NCBI GenBank assembly: GCA_030765065.1
Contig: CM060981.1
Coordinates: forward strand, 230,461,152 to 230,525,151
Origin: Deroplatys truncata
Lineage: Eukaryota; Arthropoda; Insecta; Mantodea; Mantidae
Reading direction: 5' to 3'
DNA length: 64,000 nt
Every line of letters starts with the position of its first letter. Position 1 is the stretch's first letter. The notes beneath the pieces were generated by a model, which made no database searches, was not told where the DNA came from, and saw only the letters and a list, made by a program, of their open reading frames with translations. The translations under genes were made by a program, and so were the position numbers. Positions 2,165 to 55,725 of the stretch are shown here, piece by piece.

Positions 2165-3725
2165 GACGGATCTGTTTGTGGATATCTCTTTCAACGATAT
2201 GTGATGGACAGTTAGCCTTCTAGGTCTCATTCCTGTAGCCCCTGCTTCATGCTGTGCAGATGACATTAGGCGGACGATTAGAAGGCGGACGATTAGCCTT
2301 CAAGGTCTCATCCCTGTAACCACTGCTTCATTCCGTGCAGATGGCATTAGGGTGCCGTCCAATCTAACCGCCGCCCTCACACAGAAAGGTGGACAATTAG
2401 CCTTCAAGGTCTCATCCCTGTAACCCCTGCTTCATGCCGTGCAGATGGCATTAGGGTGCCGTCCATTCTAACCGCCGCCCTCACACAGAAAGGCGGACAA
2501 TTAGCCTTCAAGGTCTCATCCCTGTAACCCCTGCTTCATGCCGCGCAGATGGCATTAGGGTGCCGTCCATTCTAACCGCCGCCCTCACACAGAAAGGCGG
2601 ACAATTAGCCTTCAAGGTCTCATCCCTGTAACCCCTGCTTCATGCCGTGCAGATGGCATTAGGGTGCCGTCCATTCTAACCGCCGCCCTCACACAGAAAG
2701 GTGGACAGTTAGCCTTCAAGGTCTCATCCCTGTAACCCCTGCTTCAGGCCGTGCAGATGGCATTAGGGTGCCGTCCATTCTAACCGCCGCCCTCACACAG
2801 AAAGGCGGACAATTAGCCTTCAAGGTCTCACCCCTGTAACCCCTGCTTCATGCCGTGCAGATGGCATTAGGGTGCCGTCCATTCTAACCGCCGCCCTCAC
2901 ACAGAAAGGGGAACGATTAGCCTTCAATGTCTCATCCCTGTAACCCCTGCTTCATGCCGTGCAGATGGCATTAGGGTGCCGTCCATTCTAACCGCCGCCC
3001 TCACACAGAAAGGCGGACAATTAGCCTTCAAGGTCTCATCCCTGTAACCCCTGCTTCATGCCGTGCAGATGGCATTAGGGTGCCGTCAAGTCTAACCGCC
3101 GCCCTCACACAGAAAGGCGGACAATTAGCCTTCAAGGTCTCATCCCTGTAACCCCTGCTTCATGCCGTGCAGATGGCATTAGGGTGCCGTCAAGTCTAAC
3201 CGCCGCCCTCACACAGAAAGGTGGACAGTTAGCCTTCAAGGTCTCATCCCTGTAAGCCCTGCTTCATGCTGTGCAAATGGCATTAGGGTGCCATCCAGTC
3301 TAACCGCCGCCCTCACACAAAAAGGCGGACAGTTAGCCTTCAAGGTCTTATCCCTGTAACCCCTACTTCATGCCGTGCAGATGGCATTAGGGTGTCGTCC
3401 ATTCTAACCTCCACCCTCATACAGGAAAGCGGACTTTGCCTTCAAGGTCTCATCCCTGTAACCCCTGCTTCATGCTGTGCAGATGGCATTAGGGTGCAGT
3501 CCAGTCTAACCGCCGCCCTCACACAGAAAGGCGGACAGTTAGCCTTCAAGGTCTCATCCCTGTAACCCCTGCTTCATGCCGTGCAGATGGCATTAGGGTG
3601 CCGTCCAGTCTAACCGCCGCCCTCACACAGAAAGGCGGACAGTTAGCCTTCAAGGTCTCATCCCTGTAACCCCTGCTTCATGCCGTGCAGATGGCATTAG
3701 GGTGCCGTCCAGTCTAACCGCCGCC
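2165..3725. repeat. 104-bp minisatellite array, left part
   Basis: The unit containing GACAATTAGCCTTCAAGG and ending CCGCCGCCCTCACACAGAAA repeats at 104-bp spacing (for example 2491 to 2595 to 2699), about 14 copies. Edge units are more diverged than central ones. The array continues at 18493-18715, after the giant element inserted in it. A diverged relative with about two core units lies at 46180-46490, with matching flanks on both sides, so the array belongs to a dispersed element rather than a local satellite. Confidence 0.9.
3720..3725. repeat. Target-site duplication GCCGCC, left
   Basis: The uninterrupted minisatellite unit reads CTAACCGCCGCCCTCACAC. The left flank of the element ends CTAACCGCCGCC and the right flank begins GCCGCCCTCACAC. 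The duplicated target is therefore exactly six bases. Confidence 0.9.
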
Positions 3726-3735
3726 AGTAGTAATA

Positions 3736-3884
3736 GTCCCGGATGAGCCAATTGGCTTAACGATAATCCTGCCGCTAGGGGCGCTAGTGTCGCTAGTGTC
3801 GCTGCGTGCGACGGCGGCGGCGGTAAGTTTGAAAAGCGCCCTGAGCGGGAGGATTATCGTTATTGCAATTGGTTCATCCGGGAC
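3736..3884. repeat. Terminal palindrome (hairpin-capable), left end
   Basis: GTCCCGGATGAGCCAATTG at 3736 and its inverse CAATTGGTTCATCCGGGAC ending at 3884 form imperfect arms of about 40-50 nt. The arms include AACGATAATCCTGCCGC and its inverse. Between them AGGGGCGCT and AGCGCCCT are also complementary, so a folded strand would carry a second inner stem around a GGCGGCGG loop. The palindrome starts 10 nt from the element's end. Confidence 0.85.
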
Positions 3885-4454
3885 GAGTTAAAAGAATTGA
3901 GGATTAGGGTAAGGTGAAGGAAAAAGAGGAAGTGACGTGGAGTGTTTTGATTGGTTCGTTAATTTGGGTGGAAGATGAAGGAAGGAAGATGAAAGAGTAT
4001 GGAGGTCACGTGATGGAGAGGAGCGGGGTGGCGAGGTGTTGTCTGTGCGGAGGTCGGGACTGAAAGAGGGAAAAGATGGGGAGCGAGGGATAAAAAGTAT
4101 AACAGAAAGTGACGTGTGAAGTTGTGATTGGTGGGAATAAGAAGTGATGTTATTGGTGGAAAGGAACAAATGAAAGTTGTTGATTGGTAAGAATAAGATA
4201 GATTATGATTGGTGGAAAGAAAAAGGTGTGGGAGTGGGGTATGTTGGAGGTGATGGGGAAAGGTAAGTTTTGCTAGCAACAAGATTTGCAAAAGCCTGTC
4301 GTGAACTGATCAGCAATTTTTGAACGTTGGATGGTAGTTTTCTTGAGTGGATAGAGAGATGGGGCGATATGAGATGCGGTGGCGAAAATGGGAACTAAAC
4401 AAGATGGTTGAGACAAGAGGTTTAAGGACGAGGAAATTTGGAGGTTAGTGGTGA

Positions 4455-5459
4455 ACATGGCGGTCGCAAGAGGTGGGGGCAAGGAGACGCGGTGGTGAGA
4501 ATGGGAACTAAAAAGAAGATGGCGGTAGCAAGAGCTTAGAAGAGCAGATTTTGAGGTTAAAATAGTGGGAACTAAAAATGGCGGAGCGTCTGCGACAAGG
4601 AGATGCGGTGAGAACTAAACAAGATGGCGGACGCAAGAGGAGGGAAAGGAGATTTGAGGTTACAGTACCAAAACACGAAAGGATATATTCCTACGCCAAG
4701 CAGGTCCGAAAAATAATTATGCGTGTGGTACTTATCTGTTACCGGTGTGGATGCGTCACCAAAAGAGCGTGATATACCTAGGTTTTTTAAAGCGGTACAG
4801 ACACCCTTTGCAGAGGCGTAATTTAACTATACCAAAAACCTGGTACTGGACCATCGTGATGGTCGCTACCGTACGTAGGAGCAGGGTTCTCATAGCCGGT
4901 CGAAAGCGGTCAAAAAAGTGTACGACGTAGGTGTTCACAGTAGCTGCTGTCGAGTCATCCGTCGATTCGGGTGGAAGATGAAGGAAGGAAGTTAAAAGAG
5001 TATGGAGGACACGTGATGGAGAGGAGCGGAGCGGGGAGGTGTTGTCTGTGCGGAGGTCGGGACTGAAAGAGGGAAAAGATGGCGAACGAGGGATAAAAAG
5101 TATAACAGAAAGTGACGTGTGAAGTTGTGATTGGTGGGAATAAGAAGTGATGTTATTGGTGGAAAGGAACAAATGAAAGTTGTTGATTGGTGAGAATAAG
5201 AGAGATTATGATTGGTGGAAATAAAAAGGTGTGGGAGTGGGATATGTTGGAGGTGATGGGAAAGGCAAGTTTTCCTTTGCTTGCAAAAGCCTCTCCAGAA
5301 TTCATCAGCAATTTTTGAACGTTGGATGGTAGTTTTCTTGAGAGGATAGAGTGAGATGGGCGATAAGAGACGCGGTGGTGAAAATGGGAACTAAACAAGA
5401 TGACTGAGACAAGAGGTCTAAGGACGAGGAAATTTCGAGGTTAGTGGTCAACATGGCGG
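4455..5459 (-). promoter_or_regulatory. Cluster of Pho/YY1-like GCCATnTT motifs, left repeat
   Basis: Read on the minus strand, CCGCCATnTT-type sites occur at 4455-4463, 4516-4525, 4575-4584, 4621-4630 and 5451-5459. The core GCCATnTT is the established YY1/Pleiohomeotic recognition motif. Counterparts lie in the right repeat and before the 407-codon gene. Binding is inferred only. Confidence 0.45.
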
Positions 5460-5499
5460 TCGCAAGAGGTGGGGGCAAGGAGACGCAAGAGTGGTCATG

Positions 5500-5600
5500 A
5501 GCAGTGGATGTGCGTCACGATATGGCCGCTGCGATGAAAGAGGTGCAAACTGCGCGATAGCTTGAAAAATATTGCCGGCGTGACGCATTGCGCGGTGCGC
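5500..5600 (-). promoter_or_regulatory. Outward-facing copy of the promoter-like module, left repeat
   Basis: On the minus strand this reads TTTTTCAAGCTATCGCGCAG, then TTTGCACCTCTTTC and GGCCATATCGTGACGCACAT. The same module precedes the 407-codon gene at 12225-12400. Its orientation here points toward the element's end. Transcription is inferred from similarity to the gene-proximal copy. Confidence 0.4.
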
Positions 5601-5639
5601 GCGCGTTTGCCGTAAACCGTTACAGTTGCCATACTTATA

Positions 5640-5809
5640 TTATGGGTTTTTTTAATTTTTTTTTATTTTATTTTATTTATTTGTTTCTATTTTATTTTAT
5701 TTTTTATTGTTTTATTTTTTATTTTTTTATTTTATTTAATTTTTTTATTTTTTTAATGTTTTTTATTTTATTTTATTTATTTTTTTATTTTTTTTTAAAA
5801 AATAACTAG
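5640..5809. repeat. T-rich low-complexity tract
   Basis: Irregular runs of TTTTATTTTATTTATT-type sequence. The mirror A-rich tract lies at 16328-16490 in the right inverted repeat. The plus-strand open frame through it is all Phe/Leu/Tyr/Ile and is an artefact of composition. Confidence 0.85.
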
Positions 5810-6628
5810 TTTTTCGGGGATTTCTCTGGTTGGTAGACGAATGCAAGCTCTTTCTGCTTTTTCATAGGTTTTCCCTGGTTGGTAGGCGTTTGCTGTAGTG
5901 GTTGACGAAGCCCTTTCTAATTTTCGTGGTTGTCCCTGCCCAGTAGGCAAATGATGAAGTTTTACCTTGTCGGCGCACGGATACTAGGCACATACTCGCG
6001 CGCACACACACACACACACACACACCCGTTGCAGTTGCCATACTTATATTATTCGTCTTTTCCTTTTTTTCTTTTTTTTTAAAAAATAACTAGTTTTTGG
6101 GGGTTTTCTGCGGTTGGTAAACGAATGCAAGCTCTTTCTGCTTTTTCATAGGTTTTCCCTCTTTGGTAGGCGTTATCTGTAGTGGTTGACGAAGCCGTTT
6201 CTAATTTTCGAGGTTTTCTCAGGTTTTTTAGTGGTTGTCCCTACCCGGTAGGCAAATGATGAAGTTTTACCTTGTCGGCGCACGGATACTAGGCACATAC
6301 TCGCGCACACACACACACACACACACACTCACACACATACATTCGCTCACAAACTCTTTTCATTTTTCGGGCTTTTAAAAAATTAAATAGGCACACACAC
6401 ACACACACACACTATAATACTAGCGTATAAAAAAATTTAACAAACACAATCCACACAATCACAAAACTGAAAATGTATATTGCACAAAAAGTGTGCAGTG
6501 CAAAAGAAAATAAAAATTAAAGAGGCACACACACACACTATAATAGTAGCGTATAAAAAATTTAACAAACAAAACCTACACAATGACAAAATTGAAAATG
6601 TATAATATATTTTAACACAAAAGTGTGC

Positions 6629-9600
6629 AGTGCAAACGATTTTCTAGCCCCTAGTGAGTGTAAAATTGCGTTTACTTCACTTCTTTCAAACTGCTTAAAA
6701 ATCATATAAATGGTTGTTTCACGTCATAATAAGCCTATATATACCAAGAATACTGCGTTTTTTAAAAAGTCAAGAAATTGGATTTTCTAGCTCCTAGTGA
6801 GTGTAAAATCGCGTTTACTTCACTTCTTTCAAACTGCTTAAAATTCATATAAATGGATGTATCACCTCATAATAAGCCTCTATATACCAAGAATATGGAG
6901 TTTTTAACAAGTCAAGAAAATCGATTTTCTAGCCCCTAGTGAGTGTAAAATCGCGTTTACTTCACTTCTTTCAAACTTCGAAAAAATCATATAAATGGTT
7001 GTTTCACGTCATAATAAGCCTATATATACCAAAAATACCGAGTTTTTAAAAAGCCAAGAAAATGGATTTTCTAGCCCCTAGTGAGTGTAAAATCGCGTTT
7101 ACTTCACTTCTTTCAAACTTCAAAAAAATCATATAAATGGTTGTTTCACGTCATAATAAGCCTATATATACCAAGAATACTGAGTTTTTAAAAAGTGAAG
7201 AGATTCGATTTTCTAGCCCCTAGTGAGTGTAAAATTGCGTATACTTCACTTCTTTCAAACTTCGAAAAAATCATATAAATGGATGTATCACCTCATAATA
7301 AGCCTCTATATACCAAAAATACTGAGTTTTCAAAAAGTCAAGAAATTGGATTTTCTAGCCTCTATTGAGTGTAAAATCGCGTTTACTTCACTTCTTTCTA
7401 ACTTCGAAAAAATCATAAAAATTGTTTTTTCACGTCATAATAAGCCTATATATACCAAAAATACCGAGTTTTTAAAAAGTCAAGAAAGTGGATTTTCTAG
7501 CCCCTAGTGAGTGTAAAATCGCGTTTACTTCACTTCTTTCAAACTTCGAAAAAATCATATAAATGGTTGTTTCACGTGATTATAAGCCTATATATACCAA
7601 GAATACTGAGTTTTTAAAAAGTGAAGAAATTCGATTTTCCAGCCCCTAGTGAGTGTAAAATTGCGTATACTTCACTTCTTTGAAACTGCGTAAAAATCAT
7701 ATAAATGGATGTATCAGCTCATAATAAGCCTCTATATACCAAAAATACTGAGTTTTCAAAAAGTCAAGAAATTGGATTTAATAGCCTCTGTTCAGTGTAA
7801 AATCGCGTTTACTTCACTTCTTTCAAACTTCGAAAAAATCATATAAATGGTTGTTTCACGTCATAATAAGCCTATATATACCAAGAATACTGAGTTTTTA
7901 AAAAGTCAAGAAATTCGATTTTCTAGCCCCTAGTGAGTGTAAAATCGCGTTTACTGCACTTCTTTCAAACTTCGAAAAAAATCATATAAATGGTTGTTTC
8001 ACGTCATAATAAGCCTATATATACCAAGAATACTGAGTTTTTAAAAAGTGAAGAAATTCGATTTTCTAGCCCCTAGTGAGTGCAAAATTGCGTATACTTC
8101 ACTTCTTTGAAACTGCGTAAAAATCATATAAATGGATGTATCACCTCATAATAAGCCTCTATATACCAAAAATACTGAGTTTTCAAAAAGTCAAGAAAAT
8201 TGGATTTTCTAGCCTCTATTCAGTGTAATCGCGTTTACTTCACTTCTTTCAAACTTCGAAAAAATCATATAAATGGTTGTTTCACGTCATAATAAGCCTC
8301 TATATACCAAAAATACTGAGTATTCAAAAAGTCAAGAAATTCGATTTTCTAGCCTCTATTGAGTGTAAAATCCCGTTTACTTCACTTCTTTCAAACTTCG
8401 AAAAAATCATATAAATGGTTGTTTCACGTCATAATAAGCCTATATATACCAAGAATACTGAGTTTTTAAAAAGTGAAGTCATTCGATTTTCTAGCCCCTA
8501 GTGAGTGTAAAATTGCGTATACTTCACTTGTTTGAAACTGCGTAAAAATCATATAAATGGATGTATCACCTCATAATAAGCCTCTATATACCAAAAATAC
8601 TGAGTTTTCAAAAAGTCAAGAAATTGGATTTTCTAGCCTCTATTCAGTGTAAAATCGCGTTTACTTCACTTCTTTCAAACTTCGAAAAAATCATATAAAT
8701 GGATGTATCACCTCATAATAAGCCTCTATATACCAAAAATACTGAGTTTTCAAAAAGTCAGGAAATTCGATTTTCTAGCCCCTAGTGAGTGTAAAATCGC
8801 GTTTACTTCACTTCTTTCAAACGTCGAAAAAATCATATAAATGGTTGCTTCACGTCATAATAAGCCTATATATACCAAGAATACTGAGTTTTTAAAAAGT
8901 GAAGAAATTCGATTTTCTAGCACCTAGTGAGTGTAAAATCGCGTTTACTTCACTTCTTTCAAACTTCGAAAAAATCATATAAATGGTTGCTTCACGTCAT
9001 AATAAGCCTATATATACCAAGAATACTGAGTTTTTAAAAAGTGAAGAAATTAGATTTTCTAACCCCTAGTGAGTGTAAAATTGCGTATACTTCACTTCTT
9101 TCAAACTTCGAAAAAATCATATAAATGGATGTATCACCTCATAATAAGCCTCTATATACCAAAAATACTGAGTTTTCGAAAAGTCAAGAAATTGGATTTT
9201 CTAGCCTCTATTGAGTGTAAAATCGCGTTTACTTCACTTCTTTCAAACTTCGAAAAAAATCATATAAATGGTTGTTTCACGTCATAATAAGCCTATATAT
9301 ACCAAGAATACTGCGTTTTTTAAAAAGTCAAGAAATTGGATTTTCTAGCTCCTAGTGAGTGTAAAATCGCGTTTACTTCACTTCTTTCAAACTGCTTAAA
9401 ATTCATATAAATGGATGTATCACCTCATAATAAGCCTCTATATACCAAGAATATGGAGTTTTTAACAAGTCAAGAAAATCGATTTTCTAGCCCCTAGTGA
9501 GTGTAAAGTCGCGTTTACTTCACTTCTTTCAAACTTCGAAAAAATCATATAAATGGTTGTTTCACGTCATAATAAGCCTATATATACCAAAAATACCGAG

Positions 9601-10408
9601 TTTTTAAAAAGCCAAGAAAATGGATTTTCTAGCCCCTAGTGAGTGTAAAATCGCGTTTACTTCACTTCTTTCAAACTTCAAAAAAATCATATAAATGGTT
9701 GTTTCACGTCATAATAAGCCTATATATACCAAGAATACTGAGTTTTTAAAAAGTGAAGAGATTCGATTTTCTAGCCCCTAGTGAGTGTAAAATTGCGTAT
9801 ACTTCACTTCTTTCAAACTTCGAAAAAATCATATAAATGGATGTATCACCTCATAATAAGCCTCTATATACCAAAAATACTGAGTTTTCAAAAAGTCAAG
9901 AAATTGGATTTTCTAGCCTCTATTGAGTGTAAAATCGCGTTTACTTCACTTCTTTCTAACTTCGAAAAAATCATAAAAATTGTTTTTTCACGTCATAATA
10001 AGCCTATATATACCAAAAATACTGAGTTTTTAAAAAGTGAAGAAATTCGATTTTCTAGCCCCTAGTGAGTGTAAAATTGCGTATACTTCACTTCTTTGAA
10101 ACTGCGTAAAAATCATATAAATGGATGTATCACCTCATAATAAGCCTCTATATACCAAAAATACTGAGTTTTCAAAAAGTCAAGAAATTGGATTTTCTAG
10201 CCTCTGTTCAGTGTAAAATCGCGTTTACTTCACTTCTTTCAAACTTCGAAAAAATCATATAAATGGTTGTTTCACGTCATAATAAGCCTATATATACCAA
10301 GAATACTGACTTTTTAAAAAGTGAAGAAATTCGATTTTCTAGCCCTAGTGAGTGTAAAATTGCGTATACTTCACTTCTTTCAAACTTCGAAAAAATCATA
10401 TAAATGGA
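6629..10408 (+). repeat. 142-bp satellite array, forward orientation
   Basis: The block GATTTTCTAGCCCCTAGTGAG recurs at 142-bp spacing (6923, 7065, 7207 and on), giving about 26 units. Two main unit types alternate irregularly: one with GGTTGTTTCACGTCATAATA and one with GGATGTATCACCTCATAATA. A block of roughly 0.75 kb starting near 6704 recurs near 9262 with the same private variants, showing a recent segmental duplication inside the array. Open frames across the array (for example 7223-7507 and 9781-10065) are readings of the satellite, not genes. Confidence 0.95.
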
Positions 10409-11186
10409 TGAGCAATACCGATCGATGAAGACACCCGCACATGTGGGCGTCTTGCTCTAAAACTTATATGACGTTAAATAGCACGATTTTTCAGCAAAAT
10501 CCCTATCGCTCCCGTTTCTCACTACAACCGTCTGTTCTTGTCACTGGGTTTTTATAAGTTCGCTTATTGCAACCGCAGTTTCAGCATGCACGTCTAGCTA
10601 AATGCCTCATTAAAATTCGTGACGCCTTATTTCGCCACAACTTGCTAAGTTGTAATCGCAGACATTTCCGTTGCACTTCCGGTCACACGATGCATCCATT
10701 CACCGCTGCACTTTTCCCCACCATCGACCATAAAACCGCATTTAAAAGATTTTCTCGCTGACACGGCCATTCACGCACTGCTGCTTTTGCTGCACATGAG
10801 AATCGATCTTTTTACTGTTTTCTCCGATACTTCGTCAGCAGAACTATAACGCTTGCTACATGATGCTAATAGTGGATGAGCTTGCACTCCCACTAGGGCT
10901 TTTCGCGAAAGGTTAAGTATTTCCGCACGGCTATGTAATTTATTAAGTGCGTGTGGAGTTAAAAACAGTGCCCCGCTACAACTTCAATATCGGTGTCAAA
11001 TATTTAAAACTATGAGTGTCGTGTGTAGTGATTTTGTGTTGTGGGGAGCATAAAATCTGAGAAAACTCACGCACAATCTTTCGACGCGAGCAACAAGTGA
11101 ATGTGCCCTTGTTGCACGCATTGCAATAAACTGTCAAATATGCCCGCCAACCGCACCATCACCAGCGACATCGTAACACTCAATAG
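10409..11186. other. Unique spacer between opposed satellite arrays
   Basis: This 0.78-kb segment is the only non-repetitive part of the left half. It opens with a short hairpin: AAGACACCC at about 10427 and GGGCGTCTT at about 10446, separated by GCACATGT. No convincing gene is seen; a 64-codon open frame at 10567-10761 has no recognisable feature. Its position at the axis of a large inverted repeat could suit an origin or recombination site, but nothing proves that. Confidence 0.6.
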
Positions 11187-12148
11187 AGGTTAGAAAATCG
11201 AATTTCTTGACTTTTTGAATACTCAGTATTTTTGGTATATAGAGGCTTATTATGAGGTGATACATCCATTTATATGATTTTTACGCAGTTTCAAAGAAGT
11301 GAAGTATACGCAATTTTACACTCACTAGGGCTAGAAAATCGAATTTCTTCACTTTTTAAAAACTCAGTATTCTTGGTATATATAGGCTTATTATGACGTG
11401 AAACAACCATTTATATGATTTTTTCGAAGTTTGAAAGAAGTGAAGTAAACGCGATTTTACACTCAATAGAGGCTAGAAAATCGAATTTCTTGACTTTTTG
11501 AATACTCAGTATTTTTGGTATATAGAGGCTTATTATGACGTGAAACAACCATTTATATGATTTTTTCGAAGTTTGAAAGAAGTGAAGTAAACGCGATTTT
11601 ACACTGAATAGAGGCTAGAAAATCCAATTTCTTGACTTTTTGAAAACTCAGTATTTTTGGTATATAGAGGCTTATTATGAGGTGATACAACCATTTATAT
11701 GATTTTTACGCAGTTTCAAAGAAGTGAAGTATACGCAATTTTACACTCACTAGGGGGCTAGAAAATCGAATTTCTTCACTTTTTAAAAACTCAGTATTCT
11801 TGGTATATATAGGCTTATTATGACGTGAAACAACCATTTATATGATTTTTTTTCGAAGTTTGAAAGAAGTGAAGTAAACGCGATTTTACACTCACTAGGG
11901 GCTAGAAAATGCATTTTCTTGACTTTTTAAAAACTCGGTATTTTTGGTATATATAGGCTTATTATGACGTGAAAAACCATTTTTATGATTTTTTCGAAGT
12001 TTGAAAGAAGTGAAGTAAACGCGATTTTACACTCAATAGAGGCTAAAAAACCAATTTCTTGACTTTTTGAAAACTCAGTATTTTTGGTATATAGAGGCTT
12101 ATTATGAGGTGATACATCCATTTATATGATTTTTTCGAAGTTTGAAAG
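11187..12148 (-). repeat. 142-bp satellite array, reverse orientation
   Basis: About 6.8 units of the same satellite as at 6629-10408, in the opposite orientation (for example CTCACTAGGGGCTAGAAAAT). It ends at 12148 within a unit, immediately before the promoter-like region. Together with the forward array it forms a very large interrupted palindrome. Confidence 0.95.
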
Positions 12149-12159
12149 ACGTCTCTGGG

Positions 12160-12466
12160 AAGTTGGTTCGCGCAGTTTGCAGCTCTTTAAAAGACTGCTT
12201 CATCAGGCATCGGTTCACACGGGTCATTTTTCAAGTTATCGTGCAGTTTGCAGCTCTTTAAACGACTGCTTCATCAGCAACCGTTCCCACGGCCATATTG
12301 TGTCACACATCGACTGCTTCATCAGCACACGTTCGCGCAGTTTGCAGCTCTTTAATAGCAGCCGCCATGTTGTGACGCACATCGACTGCTGATTACCAGT
12401 CCTTTTAAAACAGCGTGCCAGGCTTCCCGTCTTCTCACTTAGTCTTTGCTACTGATTTAAGCAGCA
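12160..12466 (+). promoter_or_regulatory. Promoter-like region with three repeated modules
   Basis: The phrase GCAGTTTGCAGCTCTTTAA occurs three times (about 12174, 12243 and 12338), each close to CGACTGCTTCATCAG or ATCGACTGCT. CTTTAAA-like blocks inside it may act as TATA boxes. GCCATnTT motifs lie at 12291-12300 and 12362-12371. The same module, diverged, occurs once in each terminal inverted repeat. The 407-codon frame starts 66 bp after the last copy. Promoter activity is inferred from position and repetition. Confidence 0.5.
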
Positions 12467-13690
12467 ATGCAGCAACAGTTTTATACGTCGCCTTCAACTG
12501 GCAAAATCTACACGGTGGTCAGGAGCCATCCGCTGGACGCAGAGCAGACGCAACAGCAACAGGTCGGCGATCTCCCCGTGCTTCAACACCAGCAGCAGCA
12601 ACAGCTTGAGGACCAGCAGCAGCAGCAGCTGCCGAGTTTTCACGCGACATTTGGACACCTCCAGTCGCAGTGGGCGCTGCTGCCATCTGCCGGCGACCAG
12701 GACTCTTCCGTGGCGGAGCTGCCATCTTCTTCTTCTTCGTCTTCCGTGGCGGAAGTTTTACCGCCCTCTTCATTTTCGATCACCTCCACCGACAGTGGGG
12801 TGTACACGGAGGCGTACATAGACGCCGCAGGTGCTACGCCTCCGCACTTCACTTTACCTTCCTCATTGAACTATTCCCCAGTTTCCGCTCCCTCCTTTTC
12901 CTCCTACTCCGGCATTTTCCTGCATTCACCTTCCACCTTTTACAGCCAGCACTGCCAACCTCCAAACATTTCTTTTTCCCCTTCCTCTTCTGTCCCCGAA
13001 CTCTCTTCACCCCCACGGTACACTTCCACCCCAAAGACTTCTTCCCCCGTTTCCAATTTATCCTCCTTCTTTGCAGATTTCGAACCCGTGTCCCTTCAGG
13101 ACATTTCCGTCCATACCCTCACTCCTTCCACCTCCTCCTCCTCCGTTGTCGTCCTTCCCTTCTCTCCTTCCGAGCATGGTAACCTTTTCACTCCACATTC
13201 TCCTTCCTACCCACCTCCACCATTAACTCCCTCACCCTCCTCCGTTGAAGTCATACCCCTCTCTCCTCCTGCACCCCAACCACCCACATTTACCCCCATC
13301 GTCACCCAACACACCATTTTCCCATCTTCTCCTCTCCTCAACCCTGTATACATCGACATCACACCACCACCCTCTTCCTTAGTGCGGTTGCTATCCTGCC
13401 CGCCCAGCAGGTTCTGCAGAGCTCTGGTGAAACGGAACCTGTTTCCGACGTGGTCGCCGGGGTCCGTGCTGCTTCAGCACAGCAGCGGGTGGTGCTGTTC
13501 ACAGGGTTGTGAACCGGACGGGTTCGACCATCTCCTGGCAGCCCTGCCCGAGGTCGATAACCGCGACAGGCCTCAGGACCTGGCCATCCCGTTCCTGGTG
13601 CCGGTCACGGAGGAGGTTCGGCGGGCTTTGAAGACGAGCCGCAACGCCGCCTCCACGTCGGAGCCGAGGATGAAGCGATCTCGTCGCTGA
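12467..13690 (+). CDS. Gln/Ser/Pro-rich 407-residue protein of the giant element, function unknown
   Basis: An uninterrupted ATG-to-TGA frame of 407 codons. Residues 1-60 are Gln-rich with runs of four and five Q. Residues 75-320 are dominated by Ser and Pro with Thr, Phe and Tyr, including runs of S and PPPP. Residues about 325-407 look more folded, with Cys residues (SCPPSRFC, WCCSQGC) and a basic end KRSRR that fits a nuclear localisation signal. No membrane segment is seen. I recognise no family. Q-rich plus S/P-rich tracts and a basic tail resemble transcription regulators or viral nuclear proteins, which is inference. It starts just after the repeated promoter-like region and is followed by two small Cys-rich frames, suggesting one transcription unit. 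Base composition is GC- and C-rich, unlike the AT-rich surroundings. A 170-codon frame overlapping it in another phase is a shadow. Confidence 0.7.
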   Translation: MQQQFYTSPSTGKIYTVVRSHPLDAEQTQQQQVGDLPVLQHQQQQQLEDQQQQQLPSFHATFGHLQSQWALLPSAGDQDSSVAELPSSSSSSSVAEVLPPSSFSITSTDSGVYTEAYIDAAGATPPHFTLPSSLNYSPVSAPSFSSYSGIFLHSPSTFYSQHCQPPNISFSPSSSVPELSSPPRYTSTPKTSSPVSNLSSFFADFEPVSLQDISVHTLTPSTSSSSVVVLPFSPSEHGNLFTPHSPSYPPPPLTPSPSSVEVIPLSPPAPQPPTFTPIVTQHTIFPSSPLLNPVYIDITPPPSSLVRLLSCPPSRFCRALVKRNLFPTWSPGSVLLQHSSGWCCSQGCEPDGFDHLLAALPEVDNRDRPQDLAIPFLVPVTEEVRRALKTSRNAASTSEPRMKRSRR

Positions 13691-13763
13691 TATGTATTTT
13701 TAACGTGTGCAGTGTTTTTTATTGCTTTTTTTTGCGTGTCTTTTATTTTGCATATCAAATGCC

Positions 13764-14054
13764 ATGTCCTGCTGCCCATTCCGTGCACAAAGCACATCCA
13801 TAGAACCCCGAGAGTGGGTTATGAATCGATTGCCTTATTCCACAAACGATGAACTATTAAATCATTTCATCGACACTGGTGAAAGCTCGTGGTTTCTGGA
13901 CCTTCTAGCTCTTAACAGCACCGTGTACCAACCAGCGTGCTTATTTTGCCAAGCATACCGTATGTGCTTGTTAAGTAATATTAGTGTTCCTTACCGACAT
14001 TTACACACATTCACCTGCAATTGCAGACCTACCCAAGTGCGTCATTTCTTTTAA
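13764..14054 (+). CDS. Small Cys-rich protein A of the giant element, 96 residues
   Basis: The ATG at 13764 opens a 96-codon frame beginning MSCCPFRAQ. The frame is open further upstream without an ATG, and that extension is hydrophobic, so this start is an inference. The second half carries VYQPACLFCQAYRMC, then NISVPYRHLHTFTCNC. The pattern VY-P-CL-CQ-R-C, NI, HLH, C-C is shared with the next frame downstream, so the two are paralogues. CxxC pairs and a His suggest a small metal-binding fold. No family is recognised. It begins 73 bp after the 407-codon gene on the same strand. Confidence 0.6.
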   Translation: MSCCPFRAQSTSIEPREWVMNRLPYSTNDELLNHFIDTGESSWFLDLLALNSTVYQPACLFCQAYRMCLLSNISVPYRHLHTFTCNCRPTQVRHFF

Positions 14055-14081
14055 TACTTGTGTTGTGTGCCAACTTTCAAC

Positions 14082-14342
14082 ATGCATTGCCCAAACAAAA
14101 AAACGTGCAATTTGTGCCTTATCAAGCGGTATGATCAAAAAGTGTTAGAAACTGTACTAAAACTTTATAGCGTTTATACCGTCTGGCATAATGCACACCA
14201 AAACTCAAGTGTATACACACCAACTTGCCTGGAATGTCAATCACGTCGGGCTTGTTTTATTAATAATATTCAAATTGTTCACAAACATTTACATTACAAG
14301 CGTCTATCTAGTTGCCCTAGATGTGACGGTTATGTCCCCTAA
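14082..14342 (+). CDS. Small Cys-rich protein B of the giant element, 86 residues
   Basis: The ATG at 14082 opens an 86-codon frame starting MHCPNKKTCNLCLIKRY. Its second half reads VYTPTCLECQSRRAC, then NIQIVHKHLH and SCPRCDG, aligning with the preceding protein. The conserved spacing of CxxC, CQxxRxC and HLH between diverged sequences suggests selection on a structure rather than chance. It probably binds zinc, which is inference. The frame's first codons are duplicated as a fragment at 15835-15910, beyond an inserted repeat. Function is unknown. Confidence 0.6.
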   Translation: MHCPNKKTCNLCLIKRYDQKVLETVLKLYSVYTVWHNAHQNSSVYTPTCLECQSRRACFINNIQIVHKHLHYKRLSSCPRCDGYVP

Positions 14343-14790
14343 ACGCGTATCCAGCGCTTTTTTTTATTACTATTATGTCCATTTTATGGGCTTTGTAAAC
14401 AATATACTTGCATTTCAATGTATTCCATTTTGTATTTTTAATACACAATTTAAATACATGAATATTTTAAACTAATTCTTTCGTGCGTATTCCTTCCATT
14501 TTTCAATTTTATTGACATTGTGTGTAATTTGTTTGTTAAATTTTTATACGCTACACGCTACTATTATAGTGTTGTGTACCTATTTATTTTTTTGTTTGCA
14601 CTGCACATTTTCAGTTGAAACCTGTTTGTTTGTGTGCTTATTTCATTTCGCCTAAATCCTTTTACCTAGACAGGACTCCTTTCCTTCTCCTTTATTTTCA
14701 TAGTTGTCATAAATACAAATAAAAACTTCCATTTTCGCAATCCATTATATAAAATTAATGCAAAAACTTATGCCAACAACGTATTGCCAT
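14343..14790. other. AT-rich tail after the gene block, with TIR-like segment
   Basis: About 14525-14640 resembles the inner edge of the terminal inverted repeats: TTTTTATACGCTA, CTATTATAGTGT and TTTGCACTGCACA occur here and near 15965-16065. An AATAAA at about 14718 could serve polyadenylation of the upstream frames. No further gene is seen. Confidence 0.5.
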
Positions 14791-14794
14791 GAAA

Positions 14795-15496
14795 AAATTC
14801 TGATGGTTACACTCACATGACTTTCTCTACTCTTGTACAAACTATTTTTACAAACGCTTATTCTCCATCTACTTCATGTTAATCGAGATATCGAGATGTC
14901 AATCTTATTGCTAATTTTCTTGTACATGCAAGGGGAACATGGTAGGTTATAAGCGATAGTCAAATCTTTTAAGCGCTGGTTGCTATGTGGCGCATTCTGT
15001 TCTGTTTGCATATCCAGGACATAAAAAATTGAATAACGAATTTGAGAAAAAGTATAAGTATTGGAAAATTTAAGGAAATAACAAGCAATATCTCGAAAAT
15101 GGTTCACTCAACTAAAAAAATGTATATGACATAAATTGTGTATTTTTAACGCGATCTACATTTTTTGTGTAGTAAAATTTTGTCCATCTCTTATGATTTA
15201 CCAGTTATGCAAAAGTCGTTCACAATAAAGAATACTTTTGGAGACATTCCCAGGAAAATCGAGATATACATTTCATTTGTCTTGAAAGTATCTTGAACAT
15301 ATGATATTTTAATCAAAATCGTTAGAACCATTTTTTGAGAAAATTAAAATTTTCGAAAAATGTTCCATGTAAAGGGTTATCTGGGTTGGGGAGATTTTCT
15401 TGGAAACGTTCGTGTCGCATTTCTGGAAGATACTGAACCTAAATACCAAGTTTGGTGCTTATCCGACTGTTCGTTTCTGAGTTATGCTGTTCACAG

Positions 15497-15527
<31 letters not shown>

Positions 15528-15660
15528 CATGTATCCAAAAATGCATTTTTATTTTTTTTTTTTGGGATCCAGGGGGTCTCAAAACATGTATTTGCGGTGA
15601 AATCTCGGTATCGAATTTTTGGGTGCATTACAATACTTCCCCTTGCTGTTGGCACTGGTA
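14795..15660 (+). mobile_element. 0.95-kb CA-bearing interspersed repeat (copy inside the giant element)
   Basis: It starts near GTTACACTCACATGACTTTC and ends after ATCTCGGTATCGAATTTTTG. It holds a CA run at 15497-15523 and matches 33680-34650 over most of its length. Other copies lie at 19655-20560, 22390-22880, 22905-23470, 29320-30165 and 46500-46760. Complete copies begin ACTTTCTCTAC and end GTAGAGAAAGT, an 11-bp inverted repeat that suggests a non-autonomous DNA transposon. It split the gene-block tail from the right inverted repeat. The GTG/ATG frames across it are not genes. Confidence 0.75.
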
Positions 15661-15699
15661 CCTCTAAACCAAATGCGTTAAAAGCAATATCAACATGAA

Positions 15700-15915
15700 A
15701 TAAGCCGACAAGCTTCATACGCGAAGCACGTGCTGTGTACACTTCGTGCAATCTCTGCGCTAGCAGGAAACCTGGTCGTGGGAACCATGCTGACACAGCG
15801 CGACCCAGCTTGCCTGTACACCAACTTACAACATGCATTGCCCAGTACACCAACTTTCAACATGCATTGCCCTAACAAAAACAACGTGCAATTTATGCCT
15901 TATCAAGCGGTATCG
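15700..15915 (+). pseudogene. Duplicated fragment of small Cys-rich protein B
   Basis: CAACTTTCAACATGCATTGC and the following GTGCAATTTATGCCTTATCAAG repeat the start of the 86-codon frame (14065-14130). A shorter extra copy of the CAACATGCATTGCCC phrase lies just before. The frame then runs into the inverted repeat and is lost. It shows the Cys-rich gene was once present in additional copies. Confidence 0.6.
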
Positions 15916-16544
15916 TTACTATTAAATGTGTGTGTGTGTGCCTCTTTAATTTTTATTTTCTTTTGCACTGCACACTTTTTGTGCAATATACATTTTCAGT
16001 TTTGTGATTGTGTGGATTGTGTTTGTTAAATTTTTTTATACGCTAGTATTATAGTGTGTGTGTGCCTATTTAATTTTTTAAAAGCCCGAAAAATGAAAAG
16101 AGTTTGTGAGCGAATGTATGTGTGTGTGTGTGTGCGAGTATGTGCCTAGTATCCGTGCGCCGACAAGGTAAAACTTCATCATTTGCCTACCGGGCAGGGA
16201 CAACCACGAAAATTAGAAAGGGCTTCGTCAACCACTACAGCAAACGCCTACCAACCAGGGAAAACCTATGAAAAAGCAGAAAGAGCTTGCATTCGTCTAC
16301 CAACCAGAGAAATCCCCGAAAAACTAGTTTTTTTTTAAAAAAAAATAAAAAAATAAATAAAATAAAATAAAAAACATTAAAAAAATAAAAAAATTAAATA
16401 AAATAAAAAATAAAACAATAAAAAATAAAATAAAATAGAAACAAATAAATAAAATAAAATAAAAAAATAAAAAAAATTAAAAAAACCCATAATATAAGTA
16501 TGGCAACTGTAACGGTTTACGGCAAACGCGCGCGCACCGCGCAA

Positions 16545-16645
16545 TGCTTCACGCCGGCAATATTTTTCAAGCTATCGCGCAGTTTGCACCTCTTTCATCG
16601 CAGCGGCCATATCGTGACGCACATCCACTGCTCATGACCACTCTT
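16545..16645 (+). promoter_or_regulatory. Outward-facing copy of the promoter-like module, right repeat
   Basis: TTTTTCAAGCTATCGCGCAG, TTTGCACCTCTTTC and GGCCATATCGTGACGCACAT match the modules before the 407-codon gene. It points toward the right end. Confidence 0.4.
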
Positions 16646-16672
16646 GCGTCTCCTTGCCCCCACCTCTTGCGA

Positions 16673-17765
16673 CCGCCATGTTGACCACTAACCTCGAAAT
16701 TTCCTCGTCCTTAGACCTCTTGTCTCAGTCATCATGTTTAGTTCCCATTTTCACCACCGCGTCTCTTATCGCCCATCTCACTCTATCCACTCAAGAAAAC
16801 TACCATCCAACGTTCAAAAATTGCTGATGAATTCTGGAGAGGCTTTTGCAAGCAAAGGAAAACTTACCTTTCCCATCACCTCCAACATATCCCACTCCCA
16901 CACCTTTTTATTTCCACCAATCATAATCTCTCTTATTCTCACCAATCAACAACTTTCATTTGTTCCTTTCCACCAATAACATCACTTCTTATTCCCACCA
17001 ATCACAACTTCACACGTCACTTTCTGTTATACTTTTTATCCCTCGTTCGCCATCTTTTCCCTCTTTCAGTCCCGACCTCCGCACAGACAACACCTCCCCG
17101 CTCCGCTCCTCTCCATCACGTGTCCTCCATACTCTTTTAACTTCCTTCCTTCATCTTCCACCCGAATCGACGGATGACTCGACAGCAGCTACTGTGAACA
17201 CCTACGTCGTACACTTTTTTGACCGCTTTCGACCGGCTATGAGAACCCTGCTCCTACGTACGGTAGCGACCATCACGATGGTCCAGTACCAGGTTTTTGG
17301 TATAGTTAAATTACGCCTCTGCAAAGGGTGTCTGTACCGCTTTAAAAAACCTAGGTATATCAGTGCGTAGTGACGTTGGTTGATCTTAAAGCTGGTTAAG
17401 CATTTTCAAAAACAGTTTGCTTTTATTTTTTCGCGTCGCGTGAAGCTGCCGCTCTTTTGGTGACGCATCCACACCGGTAACAGGTAAGTACCACACGCAT
17501 AATTATTTTTCGGACCTGCTTGGCGTAGGAATATATCCTTTCGTGTTTTGGTACTGTAACCTCAAATCTCCTTACCCTCCTCTTGCGTCCGCCATCTTGT
17601 TTAGTTCTCACCGCATCTCCTTGTCGCAGACCCTGCACCATTTTTAGTTCCCACTATTTTAACCTCAAAATCTGCTCTTCTAAGCTCTTGCTACCGCCAT
17701 CTTCTTTTTAGTTCCCATTCTCACCACCGCGTCTCCTTGCCCCCACCTCTTGCGACCGCCATGTT
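16673..17765 (+). promoter_or_regulatory. Cluster of Pho/YY1-like GCCATnTT motifs, right repeat
   Basis: CCGCCATnTT sites occur at 16673-16682, 17589-17598, 17694-17703 and 17756-17765, mirroring those of the left repeat. One left-arm site (4575) is destroyed on the right. They sit within degenerate repeats reading TTTAGTTCCCATTnTCACC. Confidence 0.45.
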
Positions 17766-18333
17766 CACCACTAACCTCCAAATTTCCTCGTCCTTAAACC
17801 TCTTGTCTCAACCATCTTGTTTAGTTCCCATTTTCGCCACCGCATCTCATATCGCCCCATCTCTCTATACACTCAAGAAAACTACCATCCAACGTTCAAA
17901 AATTGCTGATCAGTTCACGACAGGCTTTTGCAAATCTTGTTGCTAGCAAAACTTACCTTTCCGATCACCTCCAACATACCGCACTCCCACACCTTTTTCT
18001 TTCCACCAATCATAATCTCTCTTATTCTTACCAATCAACAACTTTCATTTGTTCCTTTCCACCAATAACATCACTTCTTATTCCCACCAATCACAACTTC
18101 ACACGTCACTTTCTGTTATACTTTTTATCCCTCGCTCCCCATCTTTTCCCTCTTTCAGTCCCGACCTCCGCACAGACAACACCTCGCCACCCCGCTCCTC
18201 TCCATCACGTGACCTCCATACTCTTTCATCTTCCTTCCTTCATCTTCCACCCAAATTAACGAACCAATCAAAACACTCCACGTCACTTCCTCTTTTTCCT
18301 TCACCTTACCCTAATCCTCAATTCTTTTAACTC

Positions 18334-18482
18334 GTCCCGGATGAACCAATTGCAATAACGATAATCCTCCCGCTCAGGGCGCTTTTCAAACTTACCGCCG
18401 CCGCCGTCGCACGCAGCGACACTAGCGACACTAGCGCCCCTAGCGGCAGGATTATCGTTAAGCCAATTGGCTCATCCGGGAC
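18334..18482. repeat. Terminal palindrome (hairpin-capable), right end
   Basis: Mirror of 3736-3884, with the same 149-bp length, outer arms and inner GC stem. Confidence 0.85.
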
Positions 18483-18492
18483 TATTACTACT

Positions 18493-18498
18493 GCCGCC
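18493..18498. repeat. Target-site duplication GCCGCC, right
   Basis: Second copy of the six bases duplicated on insertion; see 3720-3725. Confidence 0.9.
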
Positions 18499-18790
18499 CT
18501 CACACAGAAAGGCGGACAGTTAGCCTTCAAGGTCTCATCCCTGTAACCCCTGCTTCATGCCGTGCAGATGGCATTAGGGTGCCGTCCAGTCTAACCGCCG
18601 CCCTCACACAGAAAGGCGGAAGGTTAGCCTTCAAGGTCTCATCCCTGTAACCCCTGCTTCATGCCGTGCAGATGGCATTAGGGTGCCGTCCAGTCTAACT
18701 GCTTACATTGTCTGTAGATGACATAGCAATCGCTATTACCACTTATTTTTCATTTTACTACTGTTTTAGCCTTAAGTTGGAACTTTGGGT
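18493..18790. repeat. 104-bp minisatellite, right remainder and edge
   Basis: Two units of the minisatellite follow the giant element. The edge then reads CATTGTCTGTAGATGACATA and on to TATTTTTCATTTTACT. The same edge occurs after the related copy at 46410-46490, so about 18715-18790 is the end of the host repeat. Confidence 0.8.
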
Positions 18791-23566: not shown

Positions 23567-26500
23567 CAGCAGAGTTAGGATTTTTAGGTGTAAATTTCAG
23601 ATGAAAAAAGGAATGGAAAAGGTGCTCAAATAAGGTGGAAAAAGGGACAATAAGGTGCTGCTTTATTTAAGGGGATGCACAACTGAAATTGCTTTTTCTA
23701 AATATCCATTCAATTGGGCTGAAATTTTCACCACATGTCGGTATTCTTTAGATATAATTGTTTTGTGAATTTAAATCTAAAATCTTAATTAGTTTTCAAG
23801 TTATTATTTTCAAAATATAAAATTATGGGTATATGCAAAATGCAATACATGATGCATTTTTCAAAAAAAAATCTTATATTATAATATAATTTTTTATACC
23901 ATTCTTAGTTTAAGAGAAAAAAGTTTTGCAGTTTTGTACTTGCATTTCTTTTTTCGTTTTTTTTTGTATACATTGTTATGTTCAAAAATTAATAGGGCAA
24001 AAACTATTCATTGCACAGAAAAATTATATGACAGTTTTATTTATTTGGGTTTTTGAAATAAGCAAAAAACTGTCAATATGAATGGATGAAAACTACATTG
24101 TGTGGAACATTTTGAATATGCAGACATGCTGAAAATAAGAAACGCCTTAAAATGAAGTTTTAAAAATATAAACAGCTAGCAACCAAATGCGCGAGGGTAT
24201 TTAAAAAGTCTCGTAACGATCCTGAAGCGTTCGCTAGGTCAAAAATAAACGTAGATTGTAAAACTACAAGCAATGGAGAATGTTTTGGGAACATAATTTT
24301 TATTTATTTATTATTATTTTTTTAGATTTTTTGAGATTTTGGGTTAATTTCATGTTCATTCCCTTAACTAATTCAACGATTTCTCTTTCCTCAATTCTAA
24401 TTTATTGAACTACAAACAAGTACATCAAATTATCACTCATCAAAAGAAGGAGAAATCATGAAGCTGTCGTACTTCAAGACATTAAGCATCTCCACATTTT
24501 TAAAAGTAAGTCTGTTTCTATTAGAAGATAGAATGTCTTTGTAGATGCTAACGCTTCTTTCAACATCCACAGAAACCAGTAGGGCAAACCTTGTATTCAC
24601 TCGGAATAGCAACACTACAGATGTGGCGAATTTCTCAATGTCTAGATTCTTCTGAAGACTAGATTCACGTTTGTCTTTGACAAAGCCATCTATCTGCTCG
24701 CTCACGGAAGTAAAAATATCCCATTGTTTATCCTTTTCCAGACCTTGTTCTTCCAATCCTTTAATAGCTGCAGGCAGTACTTGTTAACTATGGACACAGT
24801 ATAGTTCTGTCTGCAAATTATATATTTTCTCCGGTAACAGAAGTTGCTGTGCCTTGGAAATTGCACCTGCGTCGGATGGATCCAAAGAAATCACAAACTC
24901 TTTAATTTTGTCAAAATTCTCACACAACAAGCAGCACACTCAATCCATGATCCCCAGCGAGTAATGCCCGAGAAATTTGGAAGGGAAAGGCCAGTGATTT
25001 CCCTGTAGTAAACAACACGGCTCGGAACTTTCAGTAGAATCTTCTTCAGGGCAGAGATGAATTCATTTGCGATGTCGTATTCGTTCCATATGGATTCACA
25101 AACCTTGTGAAGGGCATGAGCCAAGCATGTCACATGCTTCAAGTTAGGAAATAAAGGTTTCAATTGGTTAACAGCTGAAACCATGTATGGAGCCTGGTCC
25201 GTAACCACAAGAAGAAGTTTTTCAAACTCGATACCAGTAAGCCAGAGTTTTTGGCAGAAGTCCATAATGGATTGCATTATTGTGCTGGCATTGGCTTTCT
25301 GCAGCTCGTACATTTTTAACAACATGGGCTTAACTTTCTCCCCTGCTAAGGAAAAAACTAAAATTTTCAAAACATATCGTTCCATTGAGTCTATAGTTTC
25401 ATCCACATCGCAATCAGACACTTTCTCCTTGATTCTATTCTTTCTATGGTTTCTGGTAAACAGGCTCCATGTAGTTTTTTCTTAAAGTACTCTCATCAGG
25501 CATTGACATCTCTGGTATTTTTCAAGAAATCCCTTGAAGGTTGGATGGTTCACCATATTGAGTGGAATTCCTGCTTGTGTAAGAGCTGCACACAAATCAA
25601 TGTTTAATTCCTTCAAATTTTGGCTTTTTGAAGAACTCTGTTAAAACGCATTTCGTAATAGAGGTTGCCGTGATTTGTTTGCTTGAAGAGTCTTGTTCAT
25701 TTGATGCTTAGAGTTGGAAATGTGTTGTTTGATGCGATTTCGCTGGTGTATTTCATCTAATAAAATTCCTGAATCACAAATAGTACATCGCATAACAGTT
25801 CCATCAGTGTCTATGAAATCTTGTTTGAATTCCTCAGCCAGAACAATAAATCGAGCACTGGACACCTTTGGCATGGTAAAATCTAGCACTAGTACACTCG
25901 TTTGATAATGTAACATAGAGCTAACACTAATTCACTTGTTAACACAATGCGACTGTCACACAACTCACTGTTGCGCCCATTCGCTGTCCACATTCTCTTA
26001 TAACACCGCGACAATTATCAGATGTTCTCATTCATGCTGGAACTTCAGTCTCAGCGATTTCTAGTAGTTTCGAGCAGAACCCAGTCTTAATAATTCTAGG
26101 AACTGGGCGGGTGAGGTTACTACCGTCTCTGCGTGCCCAGCCTTCGCCTCCACGCAAACAGATGACGTCTTTCACAGTAACAAACTCACATTCACGAACA
26201 CCAGGCTACTGCTTCTGGTAGGATGGAATCACTCATTGTCAATTGCATTATTGCGGGCTACTTTATAGCGGTAAAGCGAGAGAAAGAGGTTTTCACGAAC
26301 TCACAATTATTTTTCATTGTTGCGGGTGTGCTTTAAATTCCCGCGCGGCGTTTACTCAAAGAGATAGGCTTACTATTCGCACGTACACAGCAGGCTGAGG
26401 AGACGTTAATTGAAAGTTAAAGAATAAGTTGGAATGAAACTTAAAAGAAAAAAGGGGGGAAAGGGAATTATGGGCATGGTTGGGGGAAAATGGGATAAAG

Positions 26501-55044: not shown

Positions 55045-55725
55045 TTTAACAGTAGTTATAGTTATAGTTAGTTTATTGTGCTAAGAGTTTTACAGTTTGA
55101 TTGCCTACTGCACTTTGACCCTGGTCACTCATTCAGTAGACAATCACTACAGTTTATTTACATTTTACAATTTCCCGTCAACGCATTCTGTAGACAACCA
55201 CTATAGATTATTTAATTTTACCATTTCTTGTCAATAAATTATCTTGCTTTTTTGTTTTTTTATTCAGTTCTTTTTTTTTCATGTCCCATTTCCACTTGTT
55301 TTTCACTTTTCATTTATTGATTACTTAACCATCACACATTCACTATAGTTTTCCATTCAAAGTAAGATGCACTACCTCTTACTTTTCTCTTTCCACTGTC
55401 CAAAGCCATTTATTTTTTACTTTACACAAAAACTGTCCAATGCTCCTCGTGTCCTTGTATATCATTTTGATCATAAGTGTATTTCTATCCCCCTTCAACC
55501 ACTTCTTATTAAAAAATTCTTTTCTCCAATTTTCTGTTCCTTGGCATTTAAATACTATGTGTTCAATGTCTTCATTACCACCACATATCGGACGTTGATT
55601 CTGAGGAATACCCTGTCTTAACCCTCTTAGCCTCCATGCTGCGGTTCTTACCCATGCAATAGATTCTCTCTCTTCTTTATTTACTATGTCTATATTAAAA
55701 CTGTTATGCAGTTCGTCCATCACAA
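55045..55725 (-). mobile_element. 5'-truncated LINE copy, reverse orientation
   Basis: The minus-strand frame 55723-55379 contains INKxIVNKEERESIAW-like, GLRQGIPQNQRPICGGNEDI and EHIVFKCQGTENWRKEFF, closely matching the end of the LINE at 57510-59957. The 3' untranslated part (TCAGTAGACAATCACTACAG, complement) also matches. The element ends in an ATAGTT-type run at 55056-55070. It is truncated at about 55725. It lies in the intron between exons E and F. The first Cys of CPICGG is Arg here. Confidence 0.85.

Follow-up and report, generated by a model that had tools for sequence, protein, structure and literature searches.

The 64,000-nucleotide (nt) stretch of Deroplatys truncata CM060981.1 analyzed here (the window; all coordinates are positions within it) contains a 14.8-kb element, at positions 3726 to 18492, that is inserted inside a tandem array of 104-bp units. 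The element combines long inverted arms and two satellite arrays with three genes, termed QSP, C1, and C2, and it is very probably non-autonomous and derived from a Polinton/Maverick (adintovirus-like) lineage residing in the same genome. Because C1 and C2 are also labels of contigs, the latter are always named as such.

Structure and gene content of the element

The junctions of the element read GCCGCC/AGTAGTAATAGTCCCGG...CCGGGACTATTACTACT/GCCGCC (Table 1). Since the insertion target is a 104-bp tandem array, the 110 bp on either side are identical, and excising the element along with one GCCGCC restores the phase of the array. The same circumstance makes the exact 6-bp duplication reported in a first-pass annotation ambiguous at this locus: for this copy alone, a 4-bp duplication (with ends C...G) fitted as well, and other copies were therefore needed.

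The arms pair in two blocks (3726–4769 with 18492–17450, 99.0%; 4770–6022 with 17362–16115, 97.9%), between which 87 bp of the right arm (17363–17449) lack a counterpart in the left. Their near-identical portion is 2.3 to 2.4 kb; the 2.6 to 2.8 kb originally annotated arose because weaker pairing (87%) continues past it, as far as 6551/15914. The arm alignment (2,391 columns, of which 107 contain gaps) has 18 mismatches in 2,284 aligned bases, and this divergence of 0.8% suggests a fairly recent insertion, to which no age is assigned: arms may become alike during replication, and there is no rate to hand. For the open frames within the arms, mismatches between the two arm repeats number 17, 15, and 8 by phase and no family was matched at its cut-off; these frames are not claimed as genes.

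The intact Q/S/P-rich protein, the two Cys-rich paralogues, and the large satellite arrays noted at first pass are all present. None of 500 dinucleotide shuffles of positions 12400–14400 produced an ATG frame as long as QSP, and the longest frame reached at least 97 codons in 304 of the 500, so that the lengths of C1 and C2 are in themselves not unlikely and these two gene calls stand on conservation. C1 and C2 are 32% identical and have in common the motif NS[TS]VYxPxCLxCQxxRxC plus an HLH stretch, which suggests metal binding; the predicted fold of C2 is poor (mean predicted local distance difference test score, 45.9). QSP is conserved in its C-terminal part with a homologue on contig C11 (see below) and ends in a basic tail. 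The role of this module may be regulatory.

Six-frame Pfam scans (with X at stops) of 3726–6640 and 12150–16111, and of four frames of 10400–11177, gave no match at cut-off, their single row being DUF2207_C (E = 0.31, below its cut-off). Neither QSP nor C1/C2 has a relative outside this genome in the libraries searched (QSP; a C1/C2 alignment; C2 in viral contigs and phages; Pfam; PHROGs; and PDB by sequence), and the terminal 24-mer of the element has no match in viral contigs. Weak rows for reovirus sigma-2 (E = 0.02), a pancreatic lipase-related protein, a CTD kinase subunit, DUF7045, and phrog_21763 were taken as chance.

The first-pass annotation also listed genes for polymerase B (PolB), integrase, ATPase, and capsid as absent from this copy, and the searches agree. 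Within the ranges scanned with Pfam, and by tblastn with 24 frames of at least 200 amino acids (aa) from PolB-bearing pieces of this genome, there was no match to a protein-primed PolB or an RVE integrase gene; packaging ATPase, protease, and capsid likewise gave no Pfam match and none to the 24 frames, among which proteases below 200 aa were not represented and capsid and ATPase frames are unlabelled. The rve integrase with a C-terminal chromodomain, which serves as the adintovirus criterion in PMC11071296, has no Pfam match in the element. With none of the core genes recovered by these searches, the element is not an autonomous Polinton.

Table 1. Features of the element and its target site (positions within the window)
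Feature	Position	Strand	Basis or remark
104-bp tandem array (target site)	2282–3725, resumes 18493–18699		Repeat analysis
Left target duplication, GCCGCC	3720–3725		Junction letters, sister-copy comparison
Left inverted arm, begins (AGT)2	3726–6022	+	Self-alignment; weaker pairing as far as 6551
Terminal palindrome inside 10-nt unpaired tip	3736–3884, mirror 18334–18482	+	-59.2 kcal/mol, z = -12.8, 0/200 shuffles
Direct repeat of ~530 bp inside arm, first unit	3962–4490	+	Second unit 4965–5486, 92%
142-bp satellite array	6637–10407	+	Repeat analysis
Inter-array spacer	10408–11175		10550–10688 resembles contig C11 Polinton, L049:4284–4147, 72%
142-bp satellite array, inverted	11176–12149	-	Repeat analysis
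69-bp sequence 5' of QSP, also in both arms	12333–12401	+	5489–5557 and 16575–16643, 85.5%
QSP gene, 407 aa, Q/S/P-rich, basic C terminus	12467–13690	+	Open frame, genome-wide homologues
C1 gene, 96 aa, Cys/His-rich	13764–14054	+	Conservation
C2 gene, 86 aa, Cys/His-rich, C1 paralogue	14082–14342	+	Conservation
Dispersed host repeat inside element	14794–15643		86% to L062:6876–6006, outside contig C11 Polinton end
Partial duplicate of C2 start	15850–15913	+	Matches 14070–14132, 95%
Right inverted arm, ends (ACT)2	16115–18492	-	Self-alignment
Right target duplication, GCCGCC	18493–18498		Junction letters, sister-copy comparison

Sister copies and PolB-bearing relatives

The genome (4.29 Gb, 818 contigs) was searched with the first 400 bp of the element (the first-pass annotation had proposed such a search with the first 200 bp), and 40 of 1,917 candidates were scored; all 40 match positions 1 to 400 of the query at 98 to 100%. 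Among these scored ends are seven two-ended copies, i.e., the window's element (on contig C7) and those on contigs C10, C16, C12, C4, C2, and C5, which range from 8.6 to 18.5 kb and have differing flanks. Their target duplications (GCCGCC, GACGGG, ATCATA, TATGGC, GCTGTT/GTTGTT, AGGGTC, and GGTGTG) are perfect over 6 bp in six copies and agree at five of six bases in one. From copies with unrelated flanks, the ends are thus read as AGTAGT//ACTACT and the duplication as 6 bp long, so that both the AG...CT ends and the duplication length read at first pass are settled: this family inserts with 6-bp duplications at (AGT)2//(ACT)2 ends, with the exception of one end of the contig C5 copy, which reads AGTACT.

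The QSP-C1-C2 module is present in two of the seven copies, the window's element and that on contig C10, in which C1 and C2 encode the same proteins as in the window and QSP is frame-shifted. The other five have no DNA match to 12467–14342 and no QSP, C1, or C2 among ATG frames of at least 85 aa. Some of these gene-less copies are near-palindromic: the arms on contigs C4 and C2 match at 98 to 99% over 2.2 to 2.4 kb, with the match continuing to 4.2 kb on contig C4, and those on contig C12 match over the first 999 bp only. Relics related to the C terminus of PolB (31 to 93 aa, 30 to 61% identity, E = 4e-13 to 9e-5, by tblastn with the 24 frames) occur in four of the seven copies, on contigs C16, C12, C5, and C2. 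As a positive control, the same frames gave 31 rows on three PolB-bearing pieces; two of these pieces share lineage with the queries (L046 overlaps a query locus), and the independent rows are those on L049. No other transposase was seen between these ends in the seven copies, the sisters having been covered by ATG frames of at least 85 aa and by tblastn with Polinton frames.

Polintons with PolB genes exist in the same genome. A search for PF03175 gave 152 matches with 76 of 11,882 candidates scored, in open frames of up to 1,350 aa; most listed rows are stop-free, and none of 14 control genomes matched. A Polinton on contig C3, read at both ends (AGTAGTATATACCCC), has arms of ~147 bp at 98%, AGTAGT ends, GTTAAC on both sides, and genes for PolB, a dUTPase, and an rve integrase that also has a Chromo domain (L041:3206–4288). 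This chromodomain might direct insertion towards satellite arrays like that at 2282–3725. Its end is confirmed independently, by the inverted copy and the duplication; the ends of L044, L046, L047, and L048 were selected for AGTAGT and cannot serve as independent evidence for it.

A second PolB-bearing element, on contig C11 (L049 and L062), has a PolB frame of 1,270 aa without stops. Its end (AGTAGTATTGGTCCCGGATTAGCCAATTGGATTA) and that of the window's element (AGTAGTAATAGTCCCGGATGAGCCAATTGGCTTA) share 36 of their first 40 nt and match at 70.5% over 540 bp (235 bits, versus a maximum of 37.4 bits in 100 shuffles). The contig C11 end, located through this similarity to the window's element, is a related end and not an identical type. 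Beside it lie homologues of C2 (55% identity, E = 6e-30), C1 (41%, 1e-24), and QSP (31%, 8e-16, an open frame of 442 aa counted stop to stop), in the same gene order and strand as in the window's element, and all reading towards the end. Deeper inside, on the far side of QSP, 138 bp match the inter-array spacer of the window's element (72%), so that the right half of the latter is colinear with the terminal region on contig C11. These sequence comparisons show homology between the end and three-gene module of the window's element and their counterparts in a PolB-bearing element. Part of the 69-bp sequence at 12333–12401 also matches contig C11, at L049:4008–3947, upstream of QSP there; recurring upstream of QSP and in the arms, it is perhaps a shared control site.

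The association recurs elsewhere in the genome. When 40 of 1,246 candidates for ends of the contig C11 type were scored, 27 had a listed C2 homologue 1.6 to 2.9 kb inside, reading towards the end in every case (27/27), and at 26.58 Mb on contig C3 such an end, C2, and a PolB frame of 1,151 aa lie within 7.5 kb by coordinates. In L046 to L048, an unrelated frame upstream of PolB (~420 aa in L046 and L048, beginning MYVFILMMVALTSASEEG) occupies the place of C1/C2 beside the end; accessory genes seem exchangeable.

Terminal sequences and the QSP-C1-C2 gene family

The first 147 to 164 bases are palindromic in the window's element and in the elements on contigs C3 and C11 (z = -12.8, -6.7, and -8.8, respectively; 0/200 shuffles each), and self-inverted match rows at positions 11 to 159 of the window's element accord with this. 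The stem starts at nt 11 to 12, behind the unpaired tip, in the window's element and on contig C3; the main stem on contig C11 lies further in. Folding energies, computed without shuffles, are -14.2 (L044), -25.4 (L046), -29.0 (L047), and -48.6 (L048) kcal/mol; as such, a palindromic end is seen in some lineages and not shown for all. In 20 fetched ends (L001 to L020, with the left end on contig C5 taken from L028), bases 5 to 10 are variable (AGTAGTAATAG, AGTAGTATAAG, AGTAGTAAAAG, AGTACTAAAAG) and the following 60 nearly constant. This holds even between the two ends of the contig C5 copy, and slippage at the start of terminal replication would fit the pattern.

The left arm continues weakly into right-side sequence just behind C2 (6488–6598 versus 14611–14500, 76%), and the left end thus resembles a copy of the module-side terminal region. 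Genome-wide, adjacent C2 pairs 3.4 to 13 kb apart face outward in 21 of 23 cases, never inward, and the same way in two, as expected if the gene often sits in both arms of an element. Together with the near-palindromic gene-less copies, these pairs suggest that duplication of the termini is frequent in this genome. Copy-back can give rise to structures of this kind in protein-primed linear genomes.

The module belongs to an abundant gene family, with 150 C2 matches when 150 of 808 candidates were scored and 142 QSP matches when 102 of 847 were; open frames are frequent among them, as are frames with stops. QSP lies within 1.5 kb of C2 (E < 1e-3) at 8 of 12 C2 loci (L050 to L052, L054 to L056, L058, and L060), and none was found within that distance and threshold at L053, L057, L059, and L061. 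Between the window's element and contig C11, C2 has a synonymous divergence (dS) of 1.42 and a nonsynonymous divergence (dN) of 0.38; for the near copy at L054, the values are 0.08 and 0.01.

Matches are unevenly distributed: contig C16 (G000:C16, 707 Mb), which accounts for 16.5% of the genome's bases, has 71 of the 150 C2 matches, including 25 of the best 36, and is perhaps a chromosome on which elements of this sort survive. QSP copies also recur at spacings of ~80 to 86 kb (G000:C16:654.54–654.80 Mb and small contigs C756 to C759 and C773), often with an inverted partner ~1 kb away, perhaps reflecting a large tandem repeat into which a portion of one of these elements was captured.

Outside the element, the window contains a LINE-type (long interspersed nuclear element) reverse transcriptase in several frames at 57655–59667 (RVT_1, E = 1e-37), with an inverted piece at 55296–55695, and a frame at 24891–25481 with similarity to DUF659 (E = 1.6e-7, below cut-off) that probably represents the remains of a host transposon. 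Scanning the window for Rfam families and tRNAs gave no hits.

Origin of the element and alternative explanations

The ends, the duplication, the module shared with contig C11, and the PolB relics are the grounds on which we regard descent from a Polinton/Maverick lineage of this genome, followed by loss of autonomy, as very probable. The element retained the conserved accessory module of the terminus, gained satellite arrays, and has one terminal region at both ends. By this account, the core genes would have been lost and one terminal region (the end and its accessory-gene flank) copied to the opposite end, most simply via copy-back or template switching during protein-primed replication. 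The missing genes and repeated insertions suggest that the polymerase and integrase acting on these ends would come in trans from helper Polintons. The three module products could be accessory proteins of an early-gene type, QSP as a disordered nuclear factor and C1 and C2 as small proteins that bind metal, and the module may have been retained since it favours the element or the cell state that the element needs.

Several observations weigh against this account. PolB was found within exactly this end type in none of the seven copies read, the PolB-bearing relative on contig C11 having a related end, and no PolB relic was detected (tblastn, E 1e-4) in the window's element or in those on contigs C10 and C4. 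The contig C11 element was read on its module/PolB side, with its right end, duplication, and integrase outside the stretch read. Across eight PolB-bearing elements, the PolB-proximal side carries C1/C2-like genes in just three (L044, L045, and L049) and QSP in one (L049), at E < 1e-3. Lastly, C1 is saturated for dS against contig C11 (dN = 0.64), and some near copies show no silent excess (L058, C2, dS = 0.038 and dN = 0.025; L061, C1, 0.148 and 0.119).

The most serious alternative is that the element is a passive fossil, an internally deleted Polinton whose module genes are functionless remnants. The broken QSP on contig C10, the many module copies with stops, and the weak or absent constraint in several near copies all speak for it; set against these are the three open frames in the window's element, the identical C1 and C2 proteins on contig C10, and arms whose 0.8% divergence marks a fairly recent copy. 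We regard it as possible, if on balance doubtful, and it may be compatible with descent as a non-autonomous Polinton, as it concerns function and not descent. Far less probable is a self-sufficient, new virus-like replicon, with QSP, C1, and C2 acting in replication or integration without being recognised as such. The lack of relatives outside this genome, in the libraries searched, leaves function by homology open to such an interpretation, and the module is widespread, with open frames; yet it adjoins an open PolB frame on contig C11 and, by coordinates, at 26.58 Mb on contig C3, and five of the seven copies were mobile without it. Of the two possibilities raised at first pass, the non-autonomous element is therefore the one upheld: a replicon with its own replication genes is not needed, because the cargo is the accessory module of a PolB-bearing element.

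A foldback or other cut-and-paste DNA transposon, such as IS3EU/GingerRoot, that captured genes could account for long arms with internal repeats and for near-palindromic, gene-less copies. Duplications of 6 bp are usual in IS3EU/GingerRoot, whose termini are TA..TA or, occasionally, TG..CA, according to PMC10045372. The window's element, however, ends in AG..CT, its end and module match the PolB-bearing element on contig C11, and PolB-related relics persist in four of seven copies, which leaves this explanation with very little credit. Least credible of all is an assembly artefact: long inverted repeats are prone to misassembly, but the assembly shows seven copies in unrelated surroundings, whose 6-bp duplications match and whose interiors differ. 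Neither development that the first-pass annotation named as fatal to its proposal, a different transposase between the same ends or artefactual arms, has thus materialised in the seven copies read.

For the non-autonomous Polinton derivative that we favour, the closest comparison is with Polintons/Mavericks, termed adintoviruses in animals. The element has their (AGT)2//(ACT)2 ends, 6-bp duplications, and inverted arms at both ends, with a size near 15 to 20 kb, and it shares an end and the accessory module with a PolB-bearing element of its own genome. According to PMC8097293, this end motif is the commonest among vertebrate Mavericks, with 6-bp duplications, and the arms of intact copies measure 46 to 1,447 bp. 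The arms here, in contrast, are 2.3 to 2.4 kb long, two satellite arrays lie inside, and no core gene was found in this copy.

Other systems are more distant. Virophages, as generally portrayed, resemble the element in the idea of a gene-carrying entity dependent on a helper; they retain capsid genes and rely on giant viruses, whereas here no capsid gene was found and dependence on a helper is putative. The Tetris foldback element reportedly has long inverted arms and links transposons to satellite DNA, features shared, going by description, with the window's element, whose ends, duplication length, and gene content nonetheless point to Polintons. We found no account of non-autonomous, satellite, or miniature Polintons in the open-licence papers searched, although such accounts may exist.

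In this one genome, probable helpers occur alongside relics and derivatives with and without genes, and the similarity of their ends allows asking which sequences the polymerase and integrase require. The palindromic ends bear on how replication of these linear genomes starts, and the abundant QSP-C1-C2 family is tied to Polinton ends and has no relative in the libraries searched. Beyond this, and more speculatively, the element could belong to a lineage of Polinton satellite viruses that retains and spreads an early-gene module steering host chromatin or the helper, with helpers giving polymerase, integrase, and perhaps capsids, and with both ends made alike by terminal copying. We consider this unlikely on present evidence; if true, however, an animal genome would harbour two tiers, a virus and its satellite virus, in a system resembling those of virophages or satellite phages.

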